Source: Sipunculus nudus (taxonomy: Eukaryota; Annelida; Sipuncula; Golfingiida; Sipunculidae). Taken from it: a stretch of DNA of 64,000 nucleotides. The DNA lies in NCBI GenBank assembly GCA_026874595.1, contig CM049319.1, positions 1,619,501 through 1,683,500 of the forward strand, read 5' to 3'. The notes under the pieces are model-generated. The model was not told where the DNA came from. It did no database searches and saw nothing but the letters and a program-made list of their open reading frames with translations. Every line of letters begins with the position of its first letter. The stretch's first letter is position 1. Positions 2,598 to 49,000 of this stretch are shown here, piece by piece. The position numbers were made by a program, and so were the translations under genes.

Positions 2598-2764
2598 GTG
2601 AACTGTGCGCTAGTGTCCTCAAAGAATGGATCCGATCCGATGGCATGGACTCGGCCAGTCATTTGGCCATTTGCCTTCTGGATCTCAACTCCCAAACACG
2701 GCCTCATCTGGGATGCCAAGTGGTTATGATATACCCAGCATGACTCAACTTGGATTTCCACAAG
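2598..2764 (+). CDS. Coding exon 1 with 5' UTR (start codon at 2626)
   Basis: A pyrimidine-rich acceptor ending CCCACAG precedes 2598, so an untranslated exon probably lies upstream. The coding frame has a TAG stop at 2611, which places the first possible start at ATG 2626. Its context is good (A at -3, G at +4). The exon encodes 46 residues (MDPIRWHGLGQSF...) and ends at CAAG|GTGAGT in phase 1. The remaining G joins GG of exon 2 to make a glycine codon. The start could instead lie in an unseen upstream exon if the true acceptor is just before 2626. Confidence 0.65.
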
Positions 2765-5700
2765 GTGAGTTCAAACACCTGTCATTTAATGGAGATTCCT
2801 GGTATGATAGTAGATTCAAAACTATCTGCATATGTAGATAAAAAAGTGATATGAGCAGCTGGTATAGTTGTAATATCAGGATGATGTAACTCTTTGGTCA
2901 CTTAAATCAGATTTTATATTTTTGTGCATTGTTTGATTATCACACAGAATAAAAAGTCACACATCTGCATGTCATGCTTCCATGTTTTTTAATTTTTTTT
3001 CTGCATGGGCTAGTACTTCTGTAATGCACAATATATTTAAATTTTTAATGCAGGATAATAAATTCCAGAAAACCTTAATATTCAAGTGAAAATGAAATTA
3101 GGCTTTCATTGCCTCAATTTATTTTTTTATCTTGAGGTTTATTTGGATTTAGGATGGAATTTTTCCCTACATTAGCACATGCAAAATCTCTCTTTTGGTT
3201 TCACATAAAAATTATTTCTTTTGGATTTTCACAAACATTTAGAATGATTGATTATGTGTACATTTGTTCAGCATACAATATGCATGAAGATATAACACTG
3301 CTTTAAGTTTGCATACTTTCAGAATGGTGAATTATCTATGCTTAGATTTGCCAATCATTTAGAATAAGGTGTAAGACATATCTGTGCTGCGGCCCTGCAT
3401 TCATCTGGCATTATGTGAATATATTGCAGGGATATCACCCCTGTCCATGCCAGACCTTGCAGGGCAGTGCCCGATGTCACAGGAACAGATGATCGGAGGG
3501 AACCTGGGTCAGAGTACTTCAGGACTTGAATCATTGACAAGTCTTCACTCTCCTTACAAGTCTGTGCCGGTGGGACAGCCTGCATTCAGCCTCGAGTCAC
3601 CAGGTCATATGAACCCATCTTTTTCCCGACACCCCTACGCTGAAGTGGAAGCCGCTGCTCGGTCACTCTCCTACAGCACAGACGTGAAAGGATCTCTCAA
3701 TGACCAGAAAGCAGATTTAGGCCTCCCGGATGATCTGTCTAAAAGCTGGGCTCTGTCAGGTGGTGGTGGTTTACTGCATAATTCCACTCTACAGTTTCCA
3801 TCCAGCAGCTCAGTGCATGAAGGGATAAAATACCCTGCCAGCAACCAGCCTCATAGCCAAGCATTACCAGTCCACTCACAGCACAACGTCATCCACAGAG
3901 ACCAGCACATGGATAAATCAGTAGGCATGTATGGAGATGCCGGGTTATACAAGCATGAATTAGCACCAAGTCTCTCCTTGGACATGAAATATGGATTCGG
4001 GGACAAGCAGCCTCAGCCGTATTCCGACCATTCCTCTGGAGTGTACCAGTCCCCGCCAATCAGCACTGGATTACCTTCACTTAACCTGTTATCACCGTCA
4101 TCCAGTAACGCCTCGTCCCATGTCAGCCTGTTTGGGCAGCAGAAAGGGCTGTCATCCAGCCAAGAACTGCTTGGATCAATGTCATCACTAAGTCAGCCAA
4201 GGTCAGAGGTTATTCGCAGTGGTTTTTTGTCTCCAGAAGTTGAAACTAAAAATAAGACACCAACTAAACCAGTGATTCCAGTACCTGTAAGTCAGGAGCT
4301 GCCCCAGAATAACTTCCCTCTTCCTCAGCCCAACAGATCTGTCCCTCCGTCTCCAAACATCAAAGAAGATACAGGTCCATTTCTGCCTCAGATGTCCCCA
4401 GCTAAGTCAGAATATTCCCCATTTACTTCACAGATTCGTACACCAAGTGGGCAGAGCTTTGACCACATTTTAGGTCAGACTGGTGTGAGGCCCCAAGAAA
4501 GCAGTATACGTAATATTTCACAGGAGTTAAACCAGATACTGGACAGAGCAGACTTTGATGCGGACAGAGCTGGTGTGTCTCTTTCAAATGATGAGCAAGA
4601 TTTTCAGACACTCTTGGCAAGCACCGACTTCGAGCAGGACCCAGAACCTGCAATAAGCAGTGACCAAGACATCAATAACTTGCCGTCAAGCATGAAATTT
4701 GAAGAAGAGTCTTTGCCTGGACCAGAACCTCGGCCAGAAACACAAGAGCTGAAAACACCACCGGAAATTGCACCTGAAAGTGAGACAAAAACGGAGACTG
4801 CCACTGATGACTCCCCGGCCAATAAACCTGGCGATTCAGTGCTGATCAATGAGAAAGAAACTGAGGACCTTGTCTCATCAGAAAATGTTGTTTCATCTGA
4901 AGCTGACGATTCACAGGACAGCACCAACAGACAGGTAAAGTGCACTCTGGTGGAGACAAAATCAATGCTGAAAATAAAGTTAGACCGAGGAGTGGTGGAG
5001 AATTTCAAAGCACAGAAACAAGAAACAACAGAAGACTTGATCAAGTCTGATCAGGATGAAGAGTATACTCCAGGACGAAGTGTTGCCAGAACCTCCAGAA
5101 GGGGGCGTGGTGGTAAAAAGAAGAGGGGCGGCAGAGTTGGACGACCACCTAAACAGCCAAAAAAAGAAGAAGCCTCCACGGCTGATTTAATTGCAGAAGC
5201 TGACCGCAGAGCACAAGAAAACCCAGGATTGCAAGCCGACATGTTTGGTTTAGAGTCAGTTGAACATGGGCTTCCAGATTTTGAACGTGATTCAAGTTGG
5301 TTCTCAGTTAGAATGTATGGAGGTGGTCCAAAGACCAAAGCTGAACAGAAACAGATGACCTTTAAGCCCAGCAAGGTCACTGTCGCAGCAGTCGATGACG
5401 ATGATGATGAGTTTGCCCATCTTAGTGCTCCACCAGATGTAACGGCATTCCCTCCAGTTGTAGAGAAAAAAGCGATTAGCGATGACGAGTTTGCTGGACT
5501 TGATGAATGTGTGGTTGAAGATACCACTCGTGTTGCTGCAAAACCAAAAGCAGAGATAAAACCAGCATTTGATGCGTCTTTCCAGAGCTCATTTTTGAGT
5601 TTTATCCAAGGAGATAAACAAGAAACTTTGGACAGTGTAACAAACAGCCATGTTGACAGAAAGCCCATCCTGCCAAAATACGTTCCTGAGCCACAAAAAC

Positions 5701-8700
5701 CAAAACAGGTCTTTAGAAGGGTTAACAAACCAAAAGAGATTAAAAATCCCATTGATTCTGAGGTAGCTAAAGAGCGTGCCAGTCCAAAATTGGTGTCTGG
5801 CACTGTTAGCCACTCAACAGCACCATCTAGTGTGGAGTTTTCTGATGATGAAGCCTCTGTGGACAGTAACTTACAAACACAAGGATTAAGTAAAACTGTG
5901 GAGAGTGTGATTTCTAGTCTTGGTAAAGATGATAGTAGTGAGGTCTCAAGCAATCCACCATCCGTGAATCCTGGTGCCAGCTTGGAGAGTAAAGAAGAAG
6001 GCATGGAAAGACCAAATGGAGTAGTGGCGCCATCTAATGGTGAAAATACCAGGGAACAAATCGTGGAGAAGGCGGAACATTTTACCCCAAGAGGGAGAGG
6101 GAAAGGAAAACGGGGAGGAACGGCCCGGCGAGGTCGTAAACCGAAAAACCATCACTTGCACTGGAAAAAATTTGAGAGTTCTACAGCATCATCAGATTCA
6201 GAGAACTTTGAGATGGAAGTGGAAGAAATCAAGGAAGAGAGGCCAGTTATAGAAGAGGTTGAGTCAGATGGGGAGGGTATTCCCACAGCAACCACAACCC
6301 CGGTGAGAAGATCTGCTCGAAAAGCATCCAACAAGATGAGGGAGCACACTGTAAACCTGCTGGAGGGTGAGTTATATAATGTTGTATAATTGTTACAGGC
6401 ACTTGATAGTTGTGTAAAATTACTTATTGTTGGTCTCATACGATAAACTGCCCTTTTACATGTAAATATAACTAAAAATGACAAAGATAATTAAATACAA
6501 CCTTCATAGTTTACCAATATGTTCATTGTCAGGAGACTGGTCTTTTCAGTAGAAGATTTGAAGAGAGAATGTTACTTGAGATGGCTCCAAGAAGCTGAGC
6601 ATCCTCAATTCAAAGTCCTATTTCTCTATTAAAAAAAAAATTTCTCTAAATAATTTATTTTTTTTTTTATATGAATAATGTAAATGAAAAAAGTATGAAA
6701 TTGTTCACTGACCAACCTCTGTTAAAAAGATTTGAAAATGGTCTTGGGAGCCATAACAGTGATTAAACCAGCAATCTGTTGACAGTATTGAGTCATGATG
6801 TGGTCTTATTCTCATCCATTAAGACTTAAGGATATATGTATGAAATAATTTAAAATCGGAGAATTATTTCTTTGCTATGCATGATTTAAGTATAATCATT
6901 GAGCAGTAGTAAACCAATGATATGAAATTCAAAATAGCAATAAATTGTAAAAGCCCTTGTGTATTGCAAAAGATCCTGAATGTTGAACCAGGTGATATAT
7001 GTAACACTGTTTCCATATTTTTTTCCATTTTATTTATATTTTAAAAAGTTCAGTAATAAAAAATATCACAAATAAAATTTCCTCAATTAAGAGGAACTGT
7101 CAGAGAAGTATTAAAAACCTATTACCAATATGTATACATTTAATTAAACCAATATGACAAAATAGGGACTGCCATAATCACATGATGTACAGACTGCAAA
7201 CATACCTTGAAGGAGTCCAATAGTAATGTGATAAACAAAGTTTTAATGATGACTAAAAACAACTTTCACTAGACAAGATCTGTAAGACCTGTGCAAGTGT
7301 GACAGTTAAAAGAGAAATTTAAATGTAAGTCGTTTAATGTAAATTAGACATGTCAAAATAGTTTAAATGTGATAATGTACAATTTTATATTAACATTTTG
7401 CTCTTGAATTTTGATACAACATCATTTGATTGAACATCATGTTATTTATTTATTTCCCAGAGTCCATTGATATAAAGAAGGCTCTGAAGGATGAAGTGGA
7501 GGTTGCCATGAGCACCGAGTCTGACGTTGAATCAATCCATGAGGCTGACTCCGATAGCGACCCGTCATGGATGCCTCAGGGACATGGACCTGTGTCTGTA
7601 TGTATCTTTTTCATGTCCAAGCCTTATATAGCTATGTGGAGTGTAAAATATCACATCTTTCAAAAGGTCTGATTAGGCTAGCTTTGATTAATCTAGCCCT
7701 GGGCCAAGAGTGTGTATGAGTTCTTAAATATCACTAGTGCTTATCTATGTATTCCCAAAAGCCTTAGTTAATCGTTACATTGTCAGCCAGGAGAATTTGT
7801 TTAAAATTATTTTTATAATTTTGGCACTTATCATTATTTCCCTAATAGTATGCAATCTCAGACTAAAATTTCAGTTACTAGATTTTTAGATCTCATGTAT
7901 TTAAATTGTTGTGCCTTCATTAATTAACAATTAAGAAATTCAGAAAAATAATTAAATTATGGGACTATCAGATTTAATGTTTGGTGTAGTAATTTTCTTT
8001 TAAATTTGATAATCATCTATATGTAATACTTCATTGTACTTTCTTCATCAGCGACGACTCCGAGCAAGCTCTGATTCAGATGAAGATCGTAGAGAAAAGA
8101 ACCGAGTGAAAAGAATGCGCGGCAGCGGTCATAGAGGGAGGTTGGTGCATATGCATGTCATTGTCCTCTGTTCGTGATTAGTCAGTAGTGTTTCATGATA
8201 AACAAACTTCCTTAGAAAATTCCTGGAATGTAATAGTTAACCATTATACACCATGGCATCATTTGCCCTTCCAGCTGTTCTGCATTTAGCAGAAAGTCTG
8301 GTAGCTGAGTTCTTTGAGGAAATGTTGGGTCTTGGATTTGAAACCTCATTAGAATGAACTTAACTTTTATTCTCATTAAACAATGTTCAAATTTTCAGTC
8401 TGCTCTTTGCGACCTTGATCAGGTTTTCTCAGTGGCAGTCCTTCCTGCCAGAACACACTTCCTGCTCTAACCTTTTTGGGTATAAAGGGACACCTTCCTC
8501 CCCTTACATACTATAACTCTGCCAATGCCTCTTCCTGTCTGTTGGATACCAAGTCACACTTTTAAACTCGATGTTGCAAAAATATATTTCACTTTAAGTC
8601 CTGTAGCTATTTTGTAGGGGCAGAGGGTCAAGTTCTATCGTTATTTTGTGTCCAATTTTTATTTTCTGCTTAAATAGAACAGGAAAGCTAGCTGAAATCA

Positions 8701-11700
8701 ACTCTTCTGTTCCAGAAACACACAATTTTATTTTTAAAAGTAGGCATTTTTAATATATAAAATAAACCATGACCCTTCCCCCCCCCCCCCCTCAGGCAAA
8801 TAGCCCCCAGTATGCATAGAGGGTTGTTGAAAAGGGTCTGAAATGTTTCTGCCTTAAACAATTAAATAAATGGCTGTATGCCAAATTTTCACTAATTTGT
8901 AGGTCAGTAAGATTATTTATTACCATGAACAAAATTTTCGTTCATGTGTGCTTTTGCAGATAATCCACAGTAGGGCCATTCTGCCTCTGGCTTTTCTGGT
9001 TTAATATTAATATTGATTTGATTGTGGTATATTTTAAGAATACTACAGATCTGTTCCAAGGTCTGATTTAGGAGCGTCACCAACAGTATCATAAACATTA
9101 ATGGGCGACCAACAGCTGACACTGCAATACAATGTGAATACTTTCACAGTGCAAAAATTGCCAGGGCAGGAATGTGTGTATTCATGGCCTAACAGTAAGG
9201 GCATGAAGCACTCCCTTTCTCATTGATCTTCCTGGGTAGGACCTCCTTTTCCAAACTCCTGAGATAATTTTTGCATTTACTGATTCTGTTTTTCCTGACA
9301 TGACCACAGAGTCAACTGTTGTCTCTAAGTACAGACATAGCTGTAGTGAGGAAGTCATTGGTGATCATGCACAATGCCATGTCAAAGGTAGAAGCATAAG
9401 CTGTGGGAGACAAAATTGTAGTACGTATATTGAACTTTTAATAAAATAAATACAAAAAAATATTTAAGGTCAGATATCTTTGTTTATGGCTAAATACCTG
9501 ACACGATGTCTTCTTGTTTGTGTGACAGCGCCAGCTGTTACCTTTTTACAGACTTCCTCAGAATGTGCCGTGTACTGCTGGCCAGCTGGTGGTGTTATGG
9601 CATGCCTGGCTTGCCCAGGTGTTATTAAATGGCCATGTATGATATCACCCAGATACAGAGTCTGGCATGCGTGTAGGCTCCGCATGCAGCAGTTGTACAC
9701 CCGAGTCGTCCTAGATCTCTTTTTGTGCAACCCCTGCTTTGTGTCAGATTTGCTCTCACTGGTCTGATAACACCGGGACATAAGCTCTGAGCCACAACTG
9801 GTGGTATCAGACCAACAAAAGTGGATGTCACATGTTTAAAATTTGGAGCTGGATGCACATTGTGATACCACACTCATTGGTCTGATTACACTTCTTTGCT
9901 CTGTGCCCACCCTGGTGTTCAGACCCAGAGAATCTTGCTATGCAAACAGTGGATACAGGATAGAGATCTGGGATCACTGCAGTATCTAACCGCGTTGTGA
10001 GGAGCGTGGCATGCCTGATACCACACATCACTCAAGGTTTATATCAATACCTGTGGACGATATGGCTTATACATTGATTTAATACAGAGGCCTCATATCA
10101 GCCCAGCATTCAGTGACTCAAGGCCTCAGAATGAAATTGATCAATGTCAAAATTAATGTGATGTCAGTGTGCATTGTGACTCATCACCCTTGAATGAAAT
10201 TGACAAGCAGCATAGGGCATGTGACATCATTATGCTGTGACACACAGGTCAGGAATGAAACTGACGGAAAGTTGTCTCAAGTGTGTGATGTTGTTGGGGC
10301 GCCTGCCTTTTGAAGAGTTTTGTTTAAAATAGGGTGAAAATAGGGTGACTATACCAGTACCCAGTGGGTTGTGCTGATAACATGCGTGGCCATTTAATAA
10401 AAATATTATGAACCGGCTTGTTAGAACCAGATTGCCTTTTTATTTGCCAATACAAAGGTAATACAGGGCCAGCTGGTTAATGAAATATCAATATTGCCTT
10501 CCTGGCAGGCGTTAAGGATCTTTCATTGTAACACTGTGATGTGACACACCTTGGGAACAAGCTGGTCAGTAATTACACCAGCAGCAGTGACGGTCAGACT
10601 GATTAGAGATGAAATATGAAGATCTATCAGTGTGTCTTCATGTGACAAGAAACAGCTATGATAATGCTAAAACAACCAACACTTGATAATTGAGAGAGCT
10701 CTAAATGTGCACATCACTTACCATCAAGAAACGTTACATTGAATAAGTTACATAAAAGCAGAGTTACATAATGCCAGTTTTGTCCCTCCATGTTACTGCT
10801 GTTGTTATTTTAAGGGTATACACTCTTTGTAAAAGCAGTAAGCACTTGTCAGATTAAAACCTTTATGGCAGCAGTAAATTTGTACCGAGAAATAAAAACT
10901 GCCACATTAGAGACAGACATGTTCCTGTGTGGAATTTTTGGCGTTTCATGTTTAATACTTTACTGGTCATAGAAGTTTGCACATTAAAGGTTACATGGAC
11001 CACATGAAAATCTCTTTATTCCATCTCCCTATTAATTTCAACTGTTAATCTGGAAAATATTATAAATTTCGTAAGTGGAATCCATCATTTTAACCCTGAT
11101 TTATAGATAGGTTTTGCCTTCATTTGAATGTTATTTCTAATGTTTTAATTCATTACTAGTGAAAAGTCAAACAGAGCGTATGATGTAGCTTTCAAAAATG
11201 AAGTGGTACAACATGCAAGGAAGTCAGGTAGCAACAGGAAAACAGCAAGACATTATGGGATTAATGAAAAGCAAGTGCGCAGATGGTTAAAACAAGTTGA
11301 ACAGTTTGATCAAATTGACAGTTCAAGAAAGCGTCTCAGTGGTGCTGGTCACCCTGTTCAGTACAAAGAGTTGGAATCAAGGCTAATGGCTTGGGTCATT
11401 GAAACGCGCAAAAAGGGGCGACCTATAAAAGGTAAAGACCTGAGAGTACAAGCGCTGCTTATGGCGTCAGGCTCATCCTTCAGGGCGTCTAACGGCTGGC
11501 TAACACGTTTTATGAAGCGCTTTGGTCTGACTGTTAGCAAGCTCAGATCCACATCGCAAGATTGGGATTCTAAAACAGTGAAAAAAAGTACTTTCCAAGA
11601 TAAAAATGGCAGTGGACTCATGCTTAAAGGGGAGGAACAGTTGCTTCCCATTTCAAATTCAAATACCCCAGTGCCAGGTAACAGTACTAGCCAAGATGAC

Positions 11701-14700
11701 CTGATTCTGAGGTCTGATGCGGGGGGACAGATGAGCATTTTAAAAAAAGAGGCAGATTCAGTTTTAAAGTCTGACACGCACACCTCAGAACTGCCTTCTC
11801 ATACTGGTCAGACTGAAAAACCAGAGGTCACAAAACTGGTTCCGGAGCAGAGTGAGGAGGAAGAAGTGATAGTGTCCATGTCAGACATAGATGATCATGA
11901 AATAATTCCTCAGGAAACTGTGTCTGCTGTATCGGCCTCAGATGATGCAAACCAAGTCACCCAATTTGCTCAAAAGGAAGACCTACTTTCTAGGTTGCAA
12001 CAAAGTTTCAAAGACAGGGTTCAGAATTCTGTCCAAGGTACAGAGGAACTGGTACCATGGTTAAAACAAAGACACTCACAGCAGGATAAAAGCTCAAACC
12101 AAAATGAAGGAGAGGTTCTGAGTTCAATCATGAATACACCAGAGCTAGTGACCAAGTCAGAGCGGCCACATGTACCAGAGTCAGTCCAAGATGATCCTGA
12201 AGTGGTCGGGAAATCAGTCCAAAATCAGGAAAGACAAACTCCCTGTAATAGGCAAGGAGACCAAGGTCCTACGTCAGACCGTGATACACAAGGTCCTCCG
12301 TCAGACCGTGATACACAAGGTCCTCCGTCAGACCGTGATACACAAGGTCCTACGTCAGACCGTGATACACAAGGTCCTACGTCAGACCGTGATACACAAG
12401 GTCCTCCGTCAGACCGTGATACACAAGGTCCTCCGTCAGACCGTGATACACAAGGTCCTCCGTCAGACCGTGATACACAAGGTCCTCCGTCAGACCGTGA
12501 TACACAAGGTCCTCCGTCAGACCGTGATACACAAGGTCCTCCGTCAGACCGTGATACACAAGGTCCTCCGTCAGACCGTGATACACAAGGTCCTCCGTCA
12601 GACCGTGATACACAAGGTCCTCCGTCAGACCGTGATACACAAGGTCCTCCGTCAGACCGTGATACACAAGGTCCTCCGTCAGACCGTGATACACAAGGTC
12701 CTCCGTCAGACCGTGATACACAAGGTCCTCCGTCAGACCGTGATACACAAGGTCCTCCGTCAGACCGTGATACACAAGGTCCTCCGTCAGACCGTGATAC
12801 ACAAGGTCCTCCGTCAGACCGTGATACACAAGGTCCTCCGTCAGACCGTGATACACAAGGTCCTCCGTCAGACCGTGATACACAAGGTCCTACGTCAGAC
12901 CGTGATACACAAGGTCCTCCGTCAGACCGTGATACACAAGGTCCTCCGTCAGACCGTGATACACAAGGTCCTCCGTCAGACCGTGATACACAATTGCAAG
13001 GTCCTACAAGTGAAAGAGAACAAGGGGAGAGTGTCTCCTCATACCATGAATCAGGAGATAAGGCAAACCAGCATCCAGTTAAAGGTGTCCCACCCATGTC
13101 TGACCAGGATCCAGCAGTCCAGAAGGACCAACATCCAGTTACCAGGTGTGATATATCAAGCAGTTTTGAAGTAATAAATGATAGGTTGAAATGATTATAC
13201 AAGCTTAAAACTAAAATGTAGTTTTCTAGAAAAAAACAATAAAACGGGGGAAGCACTGAATTTTTTCAGATATGCTGTTTTTAGGAAACTACAATTGACT
13301 TTTGATCTGGTTCTTTGTTTCTTATCTTTGCAACTTAGCAGGTCAATTTGAATGTACCTCCCAGTGATCAATTGATCTTTAATACAAATTTTTGTAAAAA
13401 ATGTTCATGTTTATATATTTGCAAATCTTAAATTCTGAATACAGAATGTCATCCTTTGGGAATAACTATTTGGAGTATCTATACCCTGATCATGTATCCT
13501 TAAGAATTTTGGCTATTTATTTGTTATAACCTCGTAATCTTTTGATTGTAAACATTTACTGTACATACTTTGTTCAAGTTATTGCAAGACTACATGGCCC
13601 CAGGCCTGATTTTGTGTTACATTGTTTTATTTGATAGAGAAAAAATGAAGAAACGTTCCTCCTTTGATGTTGCTTTCAAGTGCCAAGTCGTGGAACATGC
13701 TAGGAAGTCTGGAAGCAACAGAAAAACAGCTAAGCATTATGGGATAGATGAAAGACAAGTGCGCATGTGGTCAAAACAAACAGAACAGTTTGAAAAATCA
13801 AAAAGCTCTGCAAAACGCCTGAAAGGAGGTGGTAGACGTGTTCATGATAAAGAGCTGGAACTGTCGTTAATGGACTGGGTGATCACCAAGCGCAAAAAGG
13901 GGATACCCATATCAGGCAGAGCACTCATGCAACAAGCTAGGCATTTATCGACCGACTCGTCTTTCAAGGCATCCCCAACATGGCTGAGACGTTTTAAATC
14001 TCGTCACGGACTCGGAGGGGACAATATGAGGTTCACCTGGGATGAACAGTTTGGGGTGTCAGATGGAGATCGTGATGATAACAAAGATCTTATTAAAAAA
14101 CTGGCACTTAAAGACCAAGAATTGATTTCCAAAGCAGCACAGCAAAGGAACGAACAGATGCCTCAGGACCAACAGGAACAGAATCAGAAATCCCCGAACA
14201 ACCAGGATGTGAAGCGTGAAGTGAGTGACGAAGAAAGCACGAGACCAAGGTGTGCCACAAAACTTCTTCATTTTAACGGAAATTTATTCTTCTGATGTAA
14301 AATGTGTTTAGGTCTGATTTGTTAAGTAAACAAGAAGAAATTTGTGTATATCGCAAAGAATTTGCAAGGATTGCCCTCTTACTTTTGATAAGTGTTAATA
14401 TCTAGAATAGAAAGGAATATTGATTGTTGAAATGGTACTAATATACGTAAAATTTACAAGGACAAATGTATCTCTCTGTATTTTGATTTAAATATTGTGC
14501 TGTGAGCTTAGCAGACTACCAGTCATGCTGAGTTATAGCGATTGATTCTGTCATGTTCCTTCCAGCCAGCCAGCCATTAGCAAAGCACCAGTTATAAGCT
14601 TTAAAGGTCCAAAAAGTTCCTGTATGATGAAATATTGTTAGAATCCCCAAAGTCAATCTGTAAGTTTGTTCTACAAGTCATCAGGCAAAACAGGATATAA

Positions 14701-17700
14701 GGCGCCTTGAACATCAGATTCTCCATAACATGACTGAAAAAACATTTTGCATTAGATCATAAATTAATATCAGGCTTTTCAGTAATACATATATTCTGTG
14801 GTCATACTAAGTTTTAATAAAAGGGATCTGTTCATATACCAGGTATGTTAAATATACTTGGAGCAAAGTGTTTTTCGTTAAAATATTATTGTATCTCCTG
14901 ATATTTGTTCTAAAACTGTTTGCTTTCTCCTGTACACAAGTGGAAATAAATTGGCACTAGGCATGATCAGTGGCACAAAACATAGTGCATGCTGCCTGCT
15001 GGTCATACTGCGCAACTTCACAAATCTAGATTTTTCAAGTTTCCAAACAGTGTTTCTTCTTCCATATTTCCTCTTGTCAAGCATTCAAAAGATTGGACCT
15101 TGGGTCAGTCTTGTTACGGTAAACAGTCGCACATGAACTGTGTTTATTGGGTACTCACAGAACCATAACAAAGTGAAAAACGTGAAGTATTGATAGTGTG
15201 TACCGAAATAGTTTTGTTTGGAAACTTTTGTATTCAGGCAAAATGAACTGTTACAGTGAGAAAATACACATATTTTTGTGTTTATATGTACCTTTAATTC
15301 AAGAGAATCATTTCTTAAAAATGTCATTAACTGTCATGAAACTTTACAGATTTGGCCAGTTATAAATAGATTTACAAGACATTTTACATTTATGGTTGCA
15401 TTGATTGCCTTTGAATTTGATATGCATTCAACTCTAATCTTGGATAACTTTGTTCTGTAAGCACCTGACACCACCTGTAATTTCTACATTTTATTACCCA
15501 AGTTCAATGGTAGTTTTGAGGCTGACAACACTTCTTAGTTCCAAGAATAAGCTTTAGATAAATTTATTATTCTTAAAACAAATATGAATCCCTGAGGTTG
15601 ATAAATGTTTGGTCATTAATTTCTTTTAAAAAAGTATAAATTTTCTTTGTCCATTATAGTTGATAAATTCATGCATTTTGTTGCAGTTACACAAAGAAGC
15701 CTGCACATATCACCAGGCCTTAAAAAGTCTTATTTTTTTATTTTGCATTTTTAAAAGCTTGAAAAGGCCATAAACGAAAATCCTGACACAGGTCTTAAAA
15801 AGGTCTTAAATTTGATTTTACCATCCTGACGTAATGAACGTGCACAAACAGTTCAGTGGTTGAACATAAGCTTGAGACAGTTTAGGAGACGTTGCCGAGG
15901 TTACTTGTCGAAGAAAGATCTCTGTAAATTCTCAGGACACACTACCATGAGACCAGATCCAACTTGTAGTGATCACCATTTGGGATCTTCAGTCGTTTTA
16001 AAGCATGGAAGGGCCACTAAGGAATTTATGTATAAAAGGGTCTGAAATTTTCTGTCAGCTGGTCTTAAAAAGTATTAAAAATGTCTTAAATTGGCTTTGC
16101 CAAGAGGTGCAGGATCCCTGATCACAGTTAATTTTCAAATGTGTCTTGTTGAATCAGAGACTTTTTCAGTTTTATAAGACTAGTGGTGCCACCTACATTT
16201 ACTTAATTTCCTAATTATTTTCTAAAAATACTTGCATTTGTATCTTAATTTTTTGTTTGATCCACTTTAACTAATGGTGTACCAAATCAGAAAATGGAAA
16301 TGATTTGCTTTACCCGTACCTGTATCTATGTCTTCATTTGAAGTCGGATATACAACAAAAATACCAATTCTTCAGTTTCAATGCATAGGCTAAGGTGAGT
16401 CTCATATTCAAATAGGTAATCTCGCTCTTTCTCTAGTCGTACTCCTACAAACTATTTCAGAACGATTTAAAACAATTTATGTACAGATTTTATCTTTCCT
16501 AAAGTAAGATTCATATTTATACTTCCTTTATCTCAGATCTGAAGTTTTCATTGGTGTCACGTCATTGGGTGACTGGCTGTGCTCACCAGCTGAGTGTCAT
16601 GACCCATGGGTCATTTTGTATTTCTTCATGTGTCTGATTCATGTTGTACCATGTGTTGATAGTGAGAAATCAAAGAGAGGCTCCTATGATATAGCGTTCA
16701 AACGACAAGTAGTACAGCATGCCAAGACATCAGGCAGCAACAGGAAAACGGCAAAGATCTTTGGAATATGTGAGCGCCAAGTGCGTGTGTGGTCAAAACA
16801 AGTGGACAAATTCGATGAGATGGAAAATTCAGCCAAACGTGTTAAGGGAGCAGGACGGCGTGTTCAGAATGATGAATTAGAGGCAGCCCTGGTGGAATGG
16901 GTAATCGCTAAACGTAGACAGGGGATTCCCATCAAAGGGACGCAGCTAAAGCTTCAGGCTCATCTGATGTCAAAAGACCCATCCTTCAGAGCTTCCTCTG
17001 GATGGTTAAACAGGTTCAGAATCCGTCACGGTCTGACGGTTAGCAAGCTCAGACGCACCTGGAATGAGGAGACAGCAGCTAACATGGATGTTAAAGCAAA
17101 GGAACAGACAAACAGGTTAGCTCCGAGCTAGTCCCAGCTGTTATGATCAGCCCTAATTCTTATATAACAATAGTTTATTGTGATTGGGTGATAGGTACAA
17201 GCCAGTTAGTTCACTTGTATTGACGATGAGTATACTATACCTCTACACACAGCACTGATCAGCAGCAGACATACTTTGTTGATTTTAAAGTTTGCTCATA
17301 ATACTTTAACATATCATGTTAATAGAATAGCTTTTGGTGAGGATACTGAGGCATGCATCAGATCTGACTTGCTATGACCTGATAAAAACAAGAATTGACA
17401 ATTAATGTTATCTCTAAGGTCTCGCCTGCTAAAGTTCGTTCCACTACTCTGTCCACCTGTTTTTTGGTAAGTCCAGGATGTCAAAACTTTTTACATGAAA
17501 GGCAGAAAGAGTAAAACGTATAATTAAATATTATGAAAATATTAACATACCTCATGTCATTTTCTGTAAAGTTTTATAACAATCTTGTGTGAAACTAGTT
17601 CATTCTGTATTGCTATCAGACCACAAACTATATGAAATGGACTTTGTAGAGATATTGCGCATAAAAGACATAACTACAAGACCAATTTATAAAGATATTA

Positions 17701-19898
17701 GACCCTATTTACAGAGAGGTTTGTCCTCTCATGCACACACTTCATTGTTACATCACATATTACATCATAACCATATCTCTGAAGAACATACAATGATTAC
17801 CTATTAAGAATGCCATGAATCACAGACATGCAACAGACAACTCAATTAGGCCGTAAAGTGAATAATAATTATATCAAAAGCAGGTATGATACAAAAAATC
17901 ACACATTTTCCTCTTTTTCTGCCATTGGTGCAATATTTTTTGTTGGCAAGGTTGACTAATCTTTAAGTATTTAAGAAAAAACAGGTGAACAGGGGTGGTG
18001 GAACTGAATTTAACAGGTGCCATGTAGTAAGTAGGTTTTCCTTCTATATGTCCATCCATCCTTCACACATTTTTCTTGCACTATCTTAGCATATTTCTTG
18101 CACAGTCTCAAGAACTATTTGAAACATTGCCATAAAAGCTTATTGGAGATAGGTACCCATAAGTTTCATGACTGGAGTCCAACATGTCCACTATGCAGTT
18201 ATATTCAGACTTAATTTAAACTCATGAATTATCTCAAGAACCATTTGAGCTTGGCTCTGAATTTTTTTCTCTGAAGATTAATGTGTTAGAGAAAAATGTG
18301 TGCTTTCATTCAGCCAGTGTGGTATGCATGGGGTATGTTGGGGCCCTGATTTAGGACCATATCCTATATGAACATTTAACATTCTGAAAATTTTAAGCTC
18401 TCCATTGTGTTTCTGAGAAAATAAAAAATACAAAAATGTCTTATCAACCCTTTAATATATAACATTATTTTATCTTTTTAAACAAAGACTTAGACCATTA
18501 TAGCCTTAGGTCTGAATGCTTTGTCTGCTTCTGGTGAAAAGTTTGATGTAGACGTGTTCTGTTTTCCTCACTGTATTGAAATGATGGGCTTGTAACTGAC
18601 CCAGAACTAACTTATCTGTGGATTTTATGACATGTTAATTTGATAATGATATTTGTTTGAATAAAAACATGAAGAAATCATCAGGATATTGTTATCAGTG
18701 GGATTTTTTAACCTTGGATTTTTTATAGACCCATGAAATGACTCGTGAAACAATAGGAATTTTGCTAAGCTCCATGGTTTAGGTACAGAATTTTAAAAAC
18801 AATAAATTTTGGTCTTGAACTCACCAGGACACAAGTGGTGAAATGGGAGTGGTATTCCTTAAAATACATATCACATTATGTTGATGGATTCAGCTTATCT
18901 TGCTTTATATCTTGATATTTATTTCTGTGTTGGGTCTAGAAATATGCATGCGATTGCACTTACAATCAGTATCCAGATTGAAAAACCACAACATCTGTGT
19001 GGTTATAACCCCCCTTCCCCCCTCTCAAATAAATACTATGACATAATAATACTGGTTTTGGTACTGGTCTTGCTGAAACAAACCTACTCCTAAAAAAACA
19101 AGGATTTATTCAGTTAGACAGCTCACACACTGGTAACATAGGAATTTTGCCCATGATAAACTAGGTGGCAAACATTCTTTATGGCAAACATGCTTTTTTC
19201 AGCACGTTTTACACTTCTAATTGTTAGATGTTTTAGATGTTAAGCCCCACAGCTGAAGACACCTTGTCTGATCCCAGCACAAAATTGAAAATTTGGATGG
19301 TGGAAGTGCACTTTGATATTTGAATTGCAGATCATATCTTTTGGATTGTTGCTAGCCTTGTGTGTTCTTTATTGTATTGTTTGACATTCATTCATACATT
19401 GTGGTTGTTAAAATAATCAAATACAGAGTCACTGATAATTTTTTACAAGTATAATCTGTATATATGTTATTATATATTAAACGGACACTAATTTTATAAT
19501 CCTGTAAAGTAATTGTATTTGACCATCTTTGTCAATCTGTATCTTCTCTATCTGTATTGCATGTTTGTGTGAAGTCCCCAAAACACCCAAAATCGCTCTA
19601 ATTTGGTACCTGTTACAAAACACCCACTGACCCTCAAATTAGGAGCCAGCACCTAGTATAATTTGATAAATAAACAAATGTTGAATATATTTATGCAGTA
19701 TTCTCATCTTATTTCATATACAGAAAAAACATTGAGTGTCATAGAGGTTTAGTTTTTAAGAAACCTTGTTGATTAATTGTATTTATATAGTTATGTCATA
19801 ATACTACATCTATATTTAACAGGCATTTATTTATAAATTGATGCTAGCTTTTGGTTTCACATTTGGGATTGTTTTTACCTGTCTTTCTCCTGCACACA

Positions 19899-19943
<45 letters not shown>

Positions 19944-22900
19944 CTTTGTTTTATATATTGTAAAACCTTGTTCTGTCAAACTGGTTGAATTTTCAGTAAC
20001 CCTTTTGCATTCAGTTTACTTGTCCCTGAAAATTCAGTTAAATTTGTTTTCAAGTAAATCCAGTGATTTCATTCAGACCTAAAGAACAGTGGAACCCGTC
20101 TCAAAGACCACCTGCCTGATGAGACCACCTGTCTACTAAGACCACCTGTCTAATAAGACCACCTATCTACTAAGACCACCTGTCTAATAAGACCACCTGT
20201 CTACTAAGACCACCTGTCTAATAAGACCACCCTTCAGTGACCCTGACACGTTCATGTTGATTATAACTGACCTAACAAGACCTCCTGTTAATAAGGACCA
20301 CTTTTGTTTTTTTTTTTTTACACAGCTTTCACTGTATATTTCACCATTTCTGAGAGTCCCTTTGGTTAAGGCTGAACAAGGTATTACATTATATAAATTT
20401 AAAATTGTATGACATCTTTACCTACAACTACTTCTGTATTTTTCAGGGGACGTGGACGAGGTAGGGGACACACAGTTACCCATGCAGTACAGCCCAGTCC
20501 CATACAAACAGAACAGACAGAGGTCAGTTCAGAGAAAAATGTTGAGAATTTATTGAGACTTGGGGAATCACTACTCCTAAGTAAATTAGCATCTTTATCA
20601 TAACGTCTTTATATTTGCTACCAAGTATTATAAAAAATGTGACACCTTCTTCTGGAAATTTGGTTGATTTCAAATTAATACACTTTTGTTAAAACAATTA
20701 CTGAAACCTACTGGTATTTATGGAAATGGCATCTTACTAATAGCACTGTCTGAATGGCCTCTTGATTTTGGTTTGTTGCTTTATCCCCAAGAATTGAAAT
20801 TCTGAGTGGAAAGGAAGCTGCACATTGATTTGTTTAATTAAAAAAGGAAGACAAGTCTGTATATTTGCAAATATAAACTATAATGTGAATATACACAATT
20901 ATGCCACAACAATTGATAAAACTATAAAAGATGACTGAAGCATTGATTTGGATGAAATAGGGAAATGTTCTCAAGGTAATGTACAGAACTTTTGATTATA
21001 TAATTGTAGGCTTTACCTGAGTTTGCTTCTGTTCTTTTGTCAGATAATATGTGAGTGATATGACCTCGAGGTCATTCTCAGTGTAGCATACCCTACAGGG
21101 ACTTCTTTGACGGTCCTCCTATACAAAACATCTTATCAGCTACATAAGAATAATGGAAGTGTGTTCACATCAGAAATCAGCCCTGTGTGACCTAGTTTTC
21201 ATTGCAGAGGTGCAGTGGGATTAAGATCAGTTTAACTTATACCTTGATAGATACTTTGTTAATAGACCACTAGATGGTGCTACATATCAATATAGGGCAA
21301 GTTTACTGTGAATATGTGAGCTGTTTCTGTGAAATCAATACTAGATGGTGTTGATTTCTATTCAGAGTGCGTTTTATGCTGGTCAGCACTCTGTTCTGAA
21401 GTTATTCTTTTAGAAGGGCAGAAAATGTATTATATTACTTTATTGTTTCTATACAGGAGGTGAAGAGGAAGGCGATAGTGGGCACCCCTATCCCTGTAGC
21501 CATCGTCAATAAGCCAGGCACCCCAGGACCAAGCTCCACTCATACCACGGATAATGAAGAAGTGTCAGAGATTCTGGATGGCGATGAATCCAATCCTGTA
21601 CACAATTATCAGGTAAATCAGTGATGCCTTTTGTACATCAGCCATCTACACATCTACTAAGTAATATTACAATACTAGTATCCTCAGAAATTTCTTAACT
21701 GAAGATATTACCGTAAGAATCTCAATAGAATACGCCTATTATACTAGGATAATGTCATTAACAAATTGGAGAATTTTGTATGAACTCCACCTGCTTTTTA
21801 TATTTGAGGCATCACTGTGAATCTGATCAGGAGCAGCATGAAAAATGACTAAAGAGTGAGTGATAATAGAAGCATTTAATGGAAACTCTGAAATTTTCTC
21901 TATTTTCTTAAAATCATCATTCTAGTTTCTATATAAAAGGCTGATATTTATGTATAAACTACTTTTAGTTTAAAAGTGTTTCCAGTGGAAGAGTTGTAAA
22001 ATATATGATTAACTTATCATCACTAGCCAATCACATACAGCTTGGCATGTCACATGATTTCAGCAAGCACATCAGTGTTAGTACAGGCACAAGGTGGTGC
22101 AACTCCAGCAGCTACATTCACTACCCTCGGCAGCAAATATTTTTCAATAGCATTTACTTAGTACAGCACATTGTGAAAGAGTACCTCTATTTAAATATTC
22201 ATTTCCAGGCCTCGAATTTGACGACCGACAACCGGCAAATGCTGGTTAAAATGGCTGGTTGCCCTCAGCCATGATCCTGACTGCCAGCAAGCTGTCGGTC
22301 AAATAAATTCCTCACTACGTCCTTCTTGACTGTACACAATCTTAATCGCAGCCACTCCATATGCTTTTTAATTGAAAAAAAAACTTAGTGTTACTGGTTC
22401 CCCGTTTAAGAGGAAACTGGCCTGGGAAACCAGCAAATGAGCCGATAGTCTCTTACAGTGACACACGGTGGCGCTAAGCTAGCCACCATTCGGATCTACT
22501 CAGGGAAAATTCAGGGAACATTTCAGATAAAAAATGGCTACCCGTCTGCAAATCAGAAAAATGATCTTTTATGACCGGCTGTTATCAGCCAATCATAGCT
22601 AAGCATAGAGGTTAAAGCAGCTTGGGCTACACGTCTACATTATGTTACGCGTTATCCGATTGGTTCGCTGTATAAGGATATTGGTAATACAGTTTCGCGG
22701 GAAACTTCATCGTATCCATGCTGTGTTCAGTTGTAAAATCCTGCATATCTGGTGTTTAACATATATAGTATATATATAAATACTGGGAACACCATTAATA
22801 TATCTATTATAAGGTCTATCATCGTCCAAATTAGGCCAGCTATTAAATTATGACCTGGTAAAAAAATTATTCCCATTTCCCAGCCCCCGTCCTTGTCTCC

Positions 22901-25900
22901 ATTACACCCACCATTGTCACAATGAATAAAACATACTTGGATATGTTTTTTTCTTTTTCTTATTTAGACTTTATTCCAAATAAAATAATGCAAACAAATG
23001 AAAAAAATTAAAACTGCCTGTCAAATTTCTTTGTTGCCTGTCAAGATCAAATTTAACAGGCACCAGTAGCTTGTTATTTCCAAAAATGAAATTCGAGGCC
23101 TGATTTGGCCCCACTGTATGTCTTCTATATGAAAGAATACCTCCAATTACATATTCATTTGGGTCCTACTGGATGTCTTCTATGTGAAAGAGTGCCTCCA
23201 ATTAAATATTCATATGGGCACAACTGGGTATCTTCTAGCTTGGCACATATACACTTCAAATATTTCCAGTGGGGGTCATGAAAAGTAATACAGGTAAAAT
23301 ACGGCAAGATACATACATACAAGTATGCATTTTTTTCATGGCTTAAAAATTACTGCCAGGCAGGCATTGACACTTTCCATTCATTAGCTGGGCGACAGGA
23401 AAAGTAGAGGGTTTGAGCTAAATTTGGGAGCGTATTCTGTTAGGGACTTTAATGGAAGAACTGTGTGTGCATCATGACTAAACATTCTGAGCAAAAACCA
23501 GGGTGCTTTTTCCAGTGAGGCAGCGTAATCTGTTGAGAACTTTACAGTAGTTGCACCAAAGTGAAATTAAGGGATCTATGAATGTGACAAGCAGGAGAAA
23601 AACAATTGTGGTTTAACATATTGATAATGTTGGCAAATGTTCGATCTGCAAGAAATAAAGGTTTGGATATATGCGAGTATATTTTGTCTCATGACCTGGA
23701 TTTAATGGTAATGACCGAGACTTGGTTTAAATCGTATGATGAAGCAAAGCGAAATAAATGTGAACCGGATGGCTATACCTTGCATGATTTTCCAAGGAGA
23801 GACCATGTAAATGGAGGTGGGACTGGTATTATCACGAGAAATAATGTTCAAGTCAAATTACTAAAAGCAGAAGATGGGGAAATCATATGAATATTCTGAG
23901 TGGTCGCTGACGTATGACAAGCATGTCATTCACTTGGTTGTTCTCTATCGGCCTTGTTACTCGAAGAAGCATACAGTCACAGTGGGTGAATTTCTGGGTG
24001 ATTTTTCAGAACACTTACAAGATTTACTGATAATTAGTGATCGGCTCTTAATTTTGGGAGATTTTAACATACATATAAACAATCCTTTTGATATTGATGG
24101 GCAACACCTCCTAGATATGTTAGATAGCATGAGTTTGTCGCAACATATAAATTTTCCTACGCATATACATGGTCATTCTTTGGACTTATTAGTCACGCGA
24201 AATTTCGACACCTCTGCTGCGAGTAATGTTCAATCGGACTATTTGATTAGTGATCATTTAACTATTTTGTTCAATTTAGAGATGCCAAAACCACTAAAAG
24301 AGATGAAAACCATCAACTTTAGACCTTTAAAAAATTTAGACATCGCAAATCTTGGTGAAGAGTTATCCAGTGGGTTTGAAGAGGCGATTTCTTGGATATA
24401 CATGATGCAAATTTATTGGCTATTTTGTACAATGATATTATAGTGAATGTTTTGGATAAAGTTGCGCCTGCAAAAACAAAAGTTATTAGGACGCAACATT
24501 CTAGATGTACATGAATTCTCAGAGTGTCCATCCAGCAAAGCGATGCTACCAGAGTTTCAGCTAAGTACACATGAGGAAGTTCGAACATTAATTGCACAGT
24601 TGCCAGATAAACAGTGTTTCTCCGATCCAATACCTACTTCCATTGTAAAAAAGTGCTCAGATGTTTTTACAGGGATTATATCACATCTGATAAACACTTT
24701 GTTAAGCTCTGGTGTGTTCCCCGAGGTATGGAAGCAACCTATTGTGACGCCTTTGCCTAAAAAGCAAGGCATTTGTGAACTCTCAAATTTTCGACCAGTT
24801 AGCGGACTGCAGTTGTGCAGTAAACTAACAGAGAAAGTGTCAGTGTTAAGACTAAATGACCACATGTCACATTACTGTCCATTACCTGACCACCAGTCAG
24901 CATACCGTACCGCACACAGCACCGAAACGGCGCTTGTTAAAATTTGTTCTGATATATTCGACAGCATGGATCGGCAGGAGCTGGTTCTCCTCGTGCTGCT
25001 CGATCTTTCGGCAGCATTCGATACTATTGATGCTCGATTATTGGAAACTTTGCAAAAGGACTTGGGCCTTTGTGGCACAGTAATAAATTGGTTTAAATCA
25101 TATGTTTGATCGGACCCAAAGAATTAAAGTAAATGGAACTCTGTCTTATATATTTGAACTTAAGTATGGGGTTTCCCAGGGATCCTGCTGTGGGCCTGTA
25201 TTGTTTTCTGTGTACTGTCGGCAGTTAATGGGAAATAGTCAAAGGCCATCTTCCTCAGGTACATGGATATGCTGATGATCATCAGCTGTACCTGAGTTTC
25301 CGTCCTGGAAAAGAAGAAATCGCTGTACTGGCTATGGAAAACTGTGTCAGAGATGTACGTCACTGGATGCTACAGAATAAACTGAAAATTAACGACGGAA
25401 AAACTGATGTTTTAGTGTTAGGCACCAGACAGCAATTGGCTAAAGTTAATTTAGATTCTATTAGGATTGGAGAGGATATAGTCAAATGTTCAGTGATGGC
25501 ACGAAATTTAGGTTTTTGGCTGGATTTAAATATGGGTATGAACGGACAGATTAATGCCACATGTAGCAATGCTTTTCATAGTCTTTATAATATCAAGCAG
25601 ATCAGGAAGTATATAACAGATGATTCGGCGAAGACATTGATACATGCGGTTGTGACTAGTCAGTTGGATTATTGAAATGCTTTGTACATTAATTTACCTA
25701 AATGTAAATTAAAGAAATTGCAACGAGTCCAAAACACTGCAGCTCGGTTGATTTGTAAAGTATCTAAATTTGATCACATTTCACCGGTGCTTAAGATGCT
25801 GCACTGGTTACCAGTCAAATACAGATGTGAATACAAAATATTAATTCTTACATTCAAAGCTTTGCATGGTTTAGCCCCGATTTACATCAGTGAGATGCTT

Positions 25901-28900
25901 ATACTGTGTGATCATGCTTGATACTATTTACGTTCAAACAATGCCATCACTTTGAGAGTACCACGAACAAAAACGAAAACAGTTGGTTGTAGTTCACTTC
26001 GATACGCAGCTCCTATATTGTGGAACAACCTACCAGTGCATCTGAGACTCGTGGATAATTATGAACGTTTTAAGTCCGATCTGAAGACATTCTATTTTAA
26101 AACTGTTTCTGAATTTAGATATATATAAATGCTATGCTATGTTTTACTGGTCATATATCATGTGCATATGTTTTAATATCATAGTCTGTTGTATAACTAG
26201 TGCAGTAGAGATCTGTTTATGATGATTAGCGCTATATAAAAAATAAACTATCTATCTAACTATCTAATGTATTTTTATATGAAGTCTTGTTTTTTGTGAT
26301 TTTTTTCCCTGGTTTTTTATGATTTGTATAACAATGGATGATTTTCTTCTCACTGTATGTAAAATGAGCCTCTTTATCCCCATGTTGGTGTTCTGATGTG
26401 ATGTCCCTAAATGATTTCACATAAAAGAGTTGGATGATATGCCTTTAGATGATATATATAGCAGTAATTCATTTGATATAGATGATATTCAATATATATT
26501 TTGGTATTATAATATTAGTTTAAACTGTTTACATGTTATTGTATCCCCAGACAAAGTCGGGGGATACTATGTTTTCATGAAGGTCCGGCCGCCGCAGCTG
26601 CATATTAAATTTGTTGGCGCGATAACTCAAAAAATATTTCACGGATCTTTACCAATCTTGGTATATGTAAAGATATGGGTGAGAGGACGACGCCTAATTA
26701 AAATGAGGTCATGACCTTTTCTAGGAGAGTGTCCTTGACCTTGAATAGATCTAATTTTGGAGAACATCACACAAATTCTTAAATATCTCAAGAAATCTTG
26801 CATGGATTGATCCCAAAATCAAGTTTATCGAAGATCATGGATAGGGTTGTCATGTTCCAGAAACTGTTGGCGCCACCTATTATTATTAACTTGTTTTCGT
26901 GCCTTTTAATACCCCCAAAATTTGCCACTTGACAGTACTGTGAGCATTATAAGTAAAAAATTAATGGACGGATTTCTTTTATATTATGCATTTACATAGA
27001 TATGGGTTATGGGATGATGTTAATTTAAATTGGGGTCATGACCTTTCCTATGAGAGTGGCCTTGACCTTGAATATTCCTATATTTGGTAAAATTCACACA
27101 AAATCTTTAATGTCTAAGTAACGGATACATGGAATGATCCAAAAATCAAATTGACCAAAGATCTTGGATAGCCTTGTCTTTTGCAGAAGACAGGTGGCGC
27201 CACCTCATGTCGTTTTCTTGTTAAAATGATGTTAACGCAATAACTTTGTAAGAATTTGAGGTACAGTCACTTAACCCACAGGTTTGATGCATCTTATCAA
27301 TGACTAGGTCAAGTTCGAACATGGTTGACTTTGATGCATTTTTTCAAGGTCACAGCAGCGATTATGCTAAGATGTTATTAGGACAATAACTCAAAAAGAA
27401 TTTGTGGTACAGTCACCAAACCTACAGTTAAGATGCATCTTATCAAGGGCTAGGCCACGTTCGAATATGGATGACCTTGATGCAATTTTTCAAGGTCACT
27501 GATGCGAAAACGCTGACAAACCCACAAGTTTGATGCATCTTATCACCGGTAGGTCAAATTTGAACATGGATGGCCTTGATACATTTTTTCAAGGTCACAG
27601 CAGCGATAATGTTAAAATGAAATTACAACAATAACTAAAAAAAAAAAATGTTTGTACAGTCACCAAACTTACAGGTTAGATGCATCTTATCAAGGGCTGG
27701 GGGAAGCGGGGGGGGGGGGGGGGGGGTTTAATTGTCTGAGGATACTATGGCACCTGTGGGTCCAAGAAATATCTAGTTTTTAAATGAAATTTGTATGCAG
27801 TCCTTAGTATGCAAACTGTTTTGTGGCACTTTATATCAATGTGGGAAAAGGAAACTACATTATAATACTAAATTCTATTATTATCAATCCTCTGTATTTC
27901 AGGTGTTTGTGTGCATAGTGTAGCATTCACACAGAGTTAACAGAGGGAATTTTGCTGTGAAGATATTTGGTCTTTGTCAGGGATGGAGCTAAGAAGCCTT
28001 CAGCCCCACAATCCTATGCCTTAACCAATAACTTGTATGATTAATTTTTTATTTCTCTTTATTTGCAGAAGGGAGACTTCCTGATAGAGAAAGCAGAGAT
28101 AGAAAAACGATCAGATGATGAACCATTCCCCATTTGGCGCATTGACTCTGCCAACCTGATCCAGAAGTTTGACCCATTTATTAAAGAGGGGAAGACTCTG
28201 CACAAAGCATCGGCCATGGTACGTCCTGATAGGATTGTGAATTGATATATGAAAAAAAGATATTATAATGTAGTATTTTGTAGTTTGTTGGTATTTATAA
28301 AGCTTCTTTAATGAGTTGCTGGACCGACTTAACAAAGTTTTGTTAGATCTAGCACTGCTATCAGATCATTACAGTTGTAATCCTAGCTAATATTCTGTTC
28401 TCCTTTAGTTGTAAAGTGTTAAAAAAATTTGCTCAATCAGACCGGAACGGAATTGTTTTTTGTATGATATAAGTTAAAGTGGCAGGATGCACAGAGAACA
28501 ACTGACAGCTGTGCCACCAGTGAGTGTCACCTGTACCATTGTTAAGGCAGGGCCTGTAGGGAGAGCCCACGGGAGCTGGAGCTAGACGTAGCCATGATCA
28601 CATAAGTAATCATCTGACCATGACGCTGTCAACAGTAGGCTAATTAAAGCTAAGGAAGTAATCACATTCACACCAGTATTCCTCACTTTGGTCAAGTTTC
28701 TTTGTAAGTGATTAGTGTTTCATGGGTCATTTCCCCATGAAAAAATATACCATGGCCCTAAGGGTGCCTAGATGCTACCACATATAGCGCCATCTACCAA
28801 CTAACAATGGTATTAAATGATGTCAATAAGAGATGTGGTCATGCATATTCTAGTTGGCATATCATTAGTTCTCTGGGGTTGCAAGCAATATAAGAGGTAT

Positions 28901-47638: not shown

Positions 47639-47649
47639 CTGTAATTCTC

Positions 47650-49000
47650 CTGCAAGAAAAATCAGTCTGTTAACATTAATTATATTGTTAGCTTCATTCT
47701 TTATAGTGTTAGCATCAGTATTATAGCTGGAGTATCAATTGTCGGAGGATTACATTACATTTGCATTCATTTTAGCATCAGAATCAGTCATTATAGTAAT
47801 AAGTATTCTAATCAGATTGCTGACCTACTTTCATTAACTTCAAGAATAAAGTGTATGACACCTTTGGGGAAACTCTTCTGTTCATATATTCAACTGCTTG
47901 ACTAAATGTCCTTTAGTATTCCAACTTCTTCATAATTATATTTAAATAGCCCACTTTCAATTATGCACAGCTATCTTTTGAGTTCTTTTGAGTTTTAGTG
48001 AATTCACGTCTGATTATATCACCATAGAAAAAGTGCAAGTTTTAGTGAGAAATCAAGACTCAATCACTTTTACATTTCAGCAAATTAATACATCAAACAA
48101 CATTTAAGTTATCACTCTTTATTGTTCTATGGTTATTGATTAGATCTGTACCTGCAATTAAAAAAGGTCCTTTCACTTTCAAACTGCAACATCCAGTAAG
48201 CATTATATAATTAACACACTCTGGTCACATATATAAAATTTATATATACATAAACATTTATTTTACATTTTTCAATGCTGTGCATACAATTGTAATGTCA
48301 TTTACACAAGTGATGCAAGCTCTATTCAGCTATTACGTTATAGCTATGATTTGCTCAAGTACAGCATGTGCTATCCAATTTTGCAACTGTAAATCTAAGA
48401 AAAAATACATCACTGCCAGATAAGTATCAGTGTACTGAGAAAGGAAGTCTGAGCAGCAAAATTAGTTTCTTGGTAAATAAGGAGCAGGAACAAAGTGGAA
48501 GTTTAATATGACCTTTTTTTAAGAGTACAATTGTAATGGAGTGGATTGATTCAGACCGAACTGATATAAAAAATAATAATTTCCATAAAGTATTAGCTCC
48601 CTGTTTGTCTTTTACCATGACAATCATGGATTCACTGTAGACGTAGTGTAGGAATGTCAACACATACCTGAAAATTGAGTAAAATTTGAGTAAATTAGAG
48701 TTATTGAACCAAGAAACACGTAATTGGAGAATCTCCACATTATATGCGGAGCAACTTCGGTTGTTGCAAGAATCTCAAACAAAGACTGTACTATTTCATT
48801 ATTCTGACTATATGACCCTATAATTTGTAGCTAATCTAATAATTAATACATATATTAGCACTGTAGATGATAACTCGTTTTACAGAAATCTTTAATGAAA
48901 TGTTAATATGAATGTTATTGTTAGATTTACCTGTATTTAGTACGATTTTCCAAGAAAATGTAAGTATAGCACTCTACGTGTCTCCTGTTACAGTACCTAC
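47650..49000 (-). other. Probable 5' UTR intron of the F-box gene
   Basis: AT-rich, no coding signal. Bounded by an acceptor at 47650 and a candidate donor at 49000, both read on the minus strand. Confidence 0.4.

Follow-up and report, generated by a model that had tools for sequence, protein, structure and literature searches.

The window analysed here, a 64,000-nucleotide (nt) stretch of the Sipunculus nudus genome (GCA_026874595.1, contig CM049319.1, positions 1,619,501 to 1,683,500), holds a gene with a DUF4211 domain, whose fourth intron carries three tandem transposase-like modules, designated A, B and C, that are predicted to be exons of the gene. By in silico splicing, 14 exons assembled into a plus-strand gene at 2626-34181, which reads through 1458 codons with zero stops and is open at the 3′ end, its terminal exon not having been located. 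The product of exons 6-14 matched DUF4211 (PF13926) at 46.4 bits against a Pfam cut-off of 27. As DUF4211 is the domain common to PRR12 and QSER1 (PMC11050278, excerpt; here and below this word marks a source available in part), the host gene is, judged by its domain match, of the DUF4211 (PRR12/QSER1) type, in line with the first-pass annotation, which had called it PRR12/QSER1-like from the letters. Exon 2 encodes basic GRGGKKKRGGRVGRPPK- and RGRKPK-like stretches, which resemble AT-hooks by eye only, and a search of this exon at an E value of 0.1 returned zero Pfam families. Splice sites were scored with a donor matrix built from the gene's own 14 donors, and its 13 acceptors were scored leave-one-out. 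Within the model, two sites scored poorly in the leave-one-out test, the donor of exon 3 at -3.98 bits and the acceptor of exon 4 at -4.51 bits.

The modules proved to be frame-neutral. Re-derivation reproduced the three modules as first annotated, with their AG/GT borders and lengths of 2025, 612 and 453 nt, and the phase relations claimed for them also held: phase 2 applies at the end of exon 4, at the start of exon 5 and at the start and the candidate end of each module. When 0, 1, 2 or 3 modules were placed between exons 4 and 5 in silico, the module sequences stayed in frame with the host exons and 8/8 spliced frames were stop-free. The stop-free runs of 681 (A), 247 (B) and 207 (C) residues exceeded the longest run in every one of 200 random sequences with the dinucleotide make-up and length of intron 4 (longest run, mean 114 and maximum 194 residues). 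The module acceptors scored 3.97 (A), 4.98 (B) and 4.26 bits (C), within the top 3.6-5.1% of the 771 AGs of intron 4, and the in-phase donor of C at 17115 (6.26 bits) was the best among the donors listed in its open reading frame (ORF). The end of A needed correction. The donor at 13184 (TAG/GTTGAA) reached 1.18 bits, whereas that at 13145 (CAG/GTGTGA), which also keeps the frame, reached 7.41 bits and ranked in the top 1.6% among the 766 GTs of intron 4; the module therefore more likely ends at 13145, and the position originally given is probably wrong. The first ATG of A, at 11386, sits within the second helix-turn-helix (HTH) and none lies ahead of the first HTH, so A would be whole only if spliced. 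The tail of A contains a minisatellite at 12262-12993, with 27 units of 27 nt that encode QGPPSDRDT or QGPTSDRDT; because 23/27 units are identical, the array is probably young and variable in length.

Table 1. Exons of the DUF4211 gene model and module exons predicted within intron 4 (positions in the window).
Feature	Position	Strand	Remark
Exon 1	2626-2764	+	from ATG; 14-exon model
Exon 2	3430-6366	+	14-exon model
Exon 3	7461-7597	+	14-exon model
Exon 4	8052-8140	+	leaves in phase 2; RG-rich stretch begins
Intron 4	8141-20446 (12.3 kb)	+	contains modules A, B and C
Module exon A	11160-13145 (1986 nt); earlier 13184 (2025 nt)	+	two HTHs, long tail with 27-nt minisatellite
Module exon B	13638-14249 (612 nt)	+	BrkDBD and HTH_Tnp_Tc5, phase 2
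Module exon C	16663-17115 (453 nt)	+	BrkDBD and HTH_Tnp_Tc5, phase 2
Exon 5	20447-20522	+	enters in phase 2; continues RG-rich stretch of exon 4
Exon 6	21457-21612	+	14-exon model
Exon 7	28069-28218	+	14-exon model
Exon 8	29301-29431	+	14-exon model
Exon 9	29815-29918	+	14-exon model
Exon 10	30755-30852	+	14-exon model
Exon 11	32314-32379	+	14-exon model
Exon 12	32771-32878	+	14-exon model
Exon 13	33337-33432	+	14-exon model
Exon 14	34095-34181	+	14-exon model

All three modules encode the same pair of DNA-binding domains. Pfam confirmed the proposed order of a Brinker-type HTH followed by a CENP-B-type HTH, with BrkDBD at 29.9, 37.1 and 27.8 bits (cut-off 23.4) and HTH_Tnp_Tc5 at 52.3, 53.6 and 57.2 bits (cut-off 22.2) for A, B and C, respectively. 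The literature attributes the same combination to POGK and to Passer-family pogo transposases (PMC7386202, excerpt), in line with the first-pass annotation. Among solved structures, a profile of A, B and C matched CENP-B (1hlv, E 1e-7) and Brinker (2glo, E 0.009), and the structure predicted for C with moderate confidence was likewise closest to 1hlv. In the six frames of 8141-20446, Pfam at E ≤ 0.05 found no DDE domain; the matches obtained were DNA-binding HTH families at the modules and one weak YdaS match at A (14.1 bits, cut-off 30). A profile of the three modules revealed no fourth copy in the window. Many residues of the recognition helices are common to A, B and C, and others vary, namely sites 36, 38, 42, 44 and 47 of the first HTH and 109, 112, 113, 116, 119, 120 and 122 of the second (C numbering), so that the modules may possibly bind different targets.

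The substitutions among the modules are mainly synonymous. Over 133-134 codons, differences at first, second and third positions numbered 33/39/65 (A-B), 30/32/76 (A-C) and 41/31/82 (B-C), and the dN/dS ratio (nonsynonymous to synonymous rates), compared among the three copies only, was 0.20 for A-B and 0.10 for A-C, as under purifying selection.

To place the modules among their relatives, the genome (1.43 Gb, 153 contigs) was searched with B and C. Query B gave 100 matching places, with 150 of 155 candidates scored, and query C gave 107, with 150 of 160 scored. Among the scored candidates, B retrieved C (166.5 bits) and A (143.8 bits) ahead of the next locus (74.7 bits), and C retrieved B (166.1 bits) and A (157.4 bits) ahead of the next (78.0 bits). 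Of the 100 places found with B, 23 were matches of 38-40% spanning residues 3 to 125/126, and three of these sit in open frames of 465 residues. Of these three, L016 was examined and proved to be a Passer-like transposase, its DDE_1 domain scoring 113.4 bits. The nearest outside relatives among the scored loci were L009 and L010, with 53% and 49% identity to B in the first HTH. Both carry the SGSN.KTA word together with DDE_1 (72.0 and 71.5 bits), and their two HTHs lie in separate exon-like blocks; they represent an intron-containing lineage of Passer-like transposases. Aligned with these transposases, the module exons begin within 0-2 residues of the initiator Met, a distance subject to uncertain gap placement, and such a start would be expected had splicing recruited an acceptor lying ahead of a transposase ORF. 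Each module has its two HTHs together in a single exon, so the donor element would not have been exactly like L009 or L010. The DNA similarity of A to B and of A to C starts at the exon border or a few bases from it, and the module profile match begins only at the acceptor, not upstream. Two other relatives, L012 and L013, contain stops, whereas 3/3 modules are open.

These results led us to the reading, which we consider probable, that a phase-2 exon arose by capture of the DNA-binding region of a transposase and underwent two duplications, so that the DUF4211 protein would now have DNA-binding modules that are optional or multiple. In this scenario, a Passer-like pogo transposon, of the lineage marked by the SGSNRKTA word, would have inserted into intron 4, where the half with the Brinker-type and CENP-B-type HTHs would have become a phase-2 exon through a splice acceptor located shortly before the old transposase start, with loss of the DDE portion. 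Two tandem duplications of the captured exon would have followed, with divergence of the copies under purifying selection. The host protein would thereby have gained modules with two HTHs each, placed in the RG-rich stretch, after its low-complexity N-terminal part and ahead of DUF4211. Exons 4 and 5 and the modules are all of one phase, so that each module could be included or skipped.

Several observations weigh against this reading. The joining of exon 4 to any module is predicted here from DNA sequence. At B, the in-phase donor at 14249 (4.73 bits) scored below a frame-shifting GT at 14220 (8.11 bits) and below 13 of the gene's own 14 donors, and 11 of the 13 own acceptors outscored all three module acceptors. 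Partly used exons often carry weak splice sites, and the weak sites of the modules suggest partial inclusion; they also reduce the certainty that the modules are exons. The dS of B-C is saturated, so its dN/dS gives nothing exact, and the pairwise constraint could partly predate the capture and stem from life as a transposase. Two DUF4211 relatives turned up and both (2/2) lacked the modules, which leaves the reading without support from other species. Finally, a tree of 32 rows (31 places) did not unite A, B and C, their grouping appearing in 26% of 200 bootstraps. Trees of 15 and 13 rows united them (87/98 and 93/98), these sets having been chosen after the 32-row result by dropping long or fragmentary rows. 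The earlier proposal of capture followed by exon duplication thus fits the retrieval of the other two modules first by both B and C and is not borne out by the 32-row tree, and one capture with duplication rests more on the genome-wide best matches, the phase and the start residue than on the tree.

The 32-row tree counts in favour of a rival reading, in which A, B and C were separate insertions of related transposons, copies of which are indeed dispersed across the genome. We regard this as rather improbable, since the scores at which B and C retrieve the other modules are roughly double those of any other scored locus, the smaller post hoc trees unite the modules, and phase and start residue are identical in all three. 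It is unlikely, though slightly less so, that the modules serve as alternative last exons, with exon 4 spliced into A, B or C and the stop closely following the candidate donor, together with a local polyadenylation site, yielding short proteins that would terminate in a DNA-binding domain and be without DUF4211. Primate CSB, in which a transposase exon is joined by splicing to exons 1-5, provides a precedent (PMC3459987, excerpt), and an AATAAA lies at 13238, 44 nt past the stop of A. With 15 such hexamers in the intron, however, one near A is unsurprising; the next ones past the stops of B and C are more than 500 nt away (14816 and 18420), and in-phase donors ahead of all three stops would be purposeless.

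The modules might also be nested genes with their own promoters, outside the DUF4211 gene. The ORF of B offers ATG codons at 13594 and as its third codon, and that of C offers one at 16628, but the first ATG of A lies too far downstream for A alone to yield a whole module; the profile matches that run from the acceptor onward only, and the common phase and start residue, likewise make this very unlikely. Hardly any weight falls on the last alternative, that the modules are unused transposon remains open by chance. Other mobile debris does occur in the gene region, a reverse transcriptase in intron 6 being one example, and the tail of A is mostly minisatellite; however, the frames of the modules exceed those of all 200 random sequences, third-position bias is present in all three pairs, and it is relatives such as L012 and L013, not the modules, that contain stops.

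If the modules are indeed captured exons, splicing of three double-HTH exons might set the DNA-binding specificity of the protein, with up to eight forms and a target for each module, maybe including transposon ends; we put this forward tentatively, as an idea more doubtful than not. Separate targets are proposed on the ground that several positions of the recognition helices vary between the modules. Of the eight selectable configurations claimed at first, frame neutrality permits all eight, and it permits only, as all three modules could be constitutive. Human QSER1 reportedly associates with TET1 and antagonises DNMT3A at bivalent domains (PMC10903468, excerpt). If the DUF4211 protein acts like QSER1, its modules would direct the same chromatin activity to chosen sites.

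To our knowledge, vertebrate members of the PRR12/QSER1 family have no HTH domains. They share with the present gene a DUF4211 near the C-terminus, and basic stretches that look AT-hook-like by eye are a tentative second resemblance; PRR12 is described with AT-hooks, proline- and glycine-rich parts and DUF4211, and HTH is not named in the excerpt (PMC11050278), whereas the present gene is predicted to include HTH modules. The modules have BrkDBD followed by HTH_Tnp_Tc5 like POGK and the Passer transposases, which possess DDE_1 (PMC7386202, excerpt), a domain not found in intron 4; unlike in those proteins, the HTH pair would lie mid-protein in another gene and in three copies. In CSB-PGBD3, coding sequence of an intronic transposon is spliced to host exons (PMC3459987, excerpt), as is predicted here, but a single near-complete transposase forms the last exon there, in place of a tandem set of three modules for DNA binding, each with an in-phase donor. 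In the Caenorhabditis F-box A2 genes, a host gene family likewise captured a transposase HTH; this is one Tc1/mariner HTH, N-terminal on an F-box protein, and protein rather than DNA binding has been proposed for it (PMC12062965, excerpt). Mutually exclusive exon clusters also consist of homologous exons in tandem within one intron. They force a single choice, whereas here all combinations are open, neither the frame nor the spacing between modules (492 and 2413 nt, with A taken to 13145) forcing one.

Transposase capture is already known (PMC3459987 and PMC12062965, excerpts). In molluscs, CENPB-type genes are reported to have been independently domesticated (PMC10027918), and the terms fusion, DUF4211 and Brinker are absent from that paper. 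Three tandem, skippable transposase-derived copies in a DUF4211 gene were not found in the literature surveyed, which covered titles and the starts of abstracts, with few subscription papers. New regulators are known to have arisen when DNA-binding domains of transposases were captured; if our reading is true, a captured exon multiplied within its host gene would let splicing alter the binding sites of a chromatin protein. How members of the PRR12/QSER1 family choose their genomic sites is, as far as we know, poorly understood.

Other features were recorded in the same gene. A 28-bp tandem array at 30515-30768 repeats the exon 10 acceptor and the first bases of the exon nine times, and 3/9 acceptors (30587, 30671 and 30755) keep an open frame, so that isoforms with 28 or 56 additional residues are possible. 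Intron 6 contains a broken reverse-transcriptase element at 23588-26125, with an RVT_1 match of 35.8 bits in 24447-25106.

Elsewhere in the genome, the search met a 1432-residue open frame with two pogo-transposase-like halves (L039, 1787-6085, plus strand, of G000:C6:25789500-25799000), in which KRPVGRPRK words, AT-hook-like by eye, are repeated; this is perhaps another domesticated gene. Four diverged Brinker/CENP-B-type matches lie on one strand within 16 kb (G000:C4:52274362-52290783) and may represent clustered genes or copies that are related. The remainder of the window contains a 637-residue open frame with an F-box and leucine-rich repeats on the minus strand (45821-47734) and two satellite-like arrays, one of 58 bp in 27.6 copies (35603-37204) and one of 332 bp in 3.4 copies (62343-63498).

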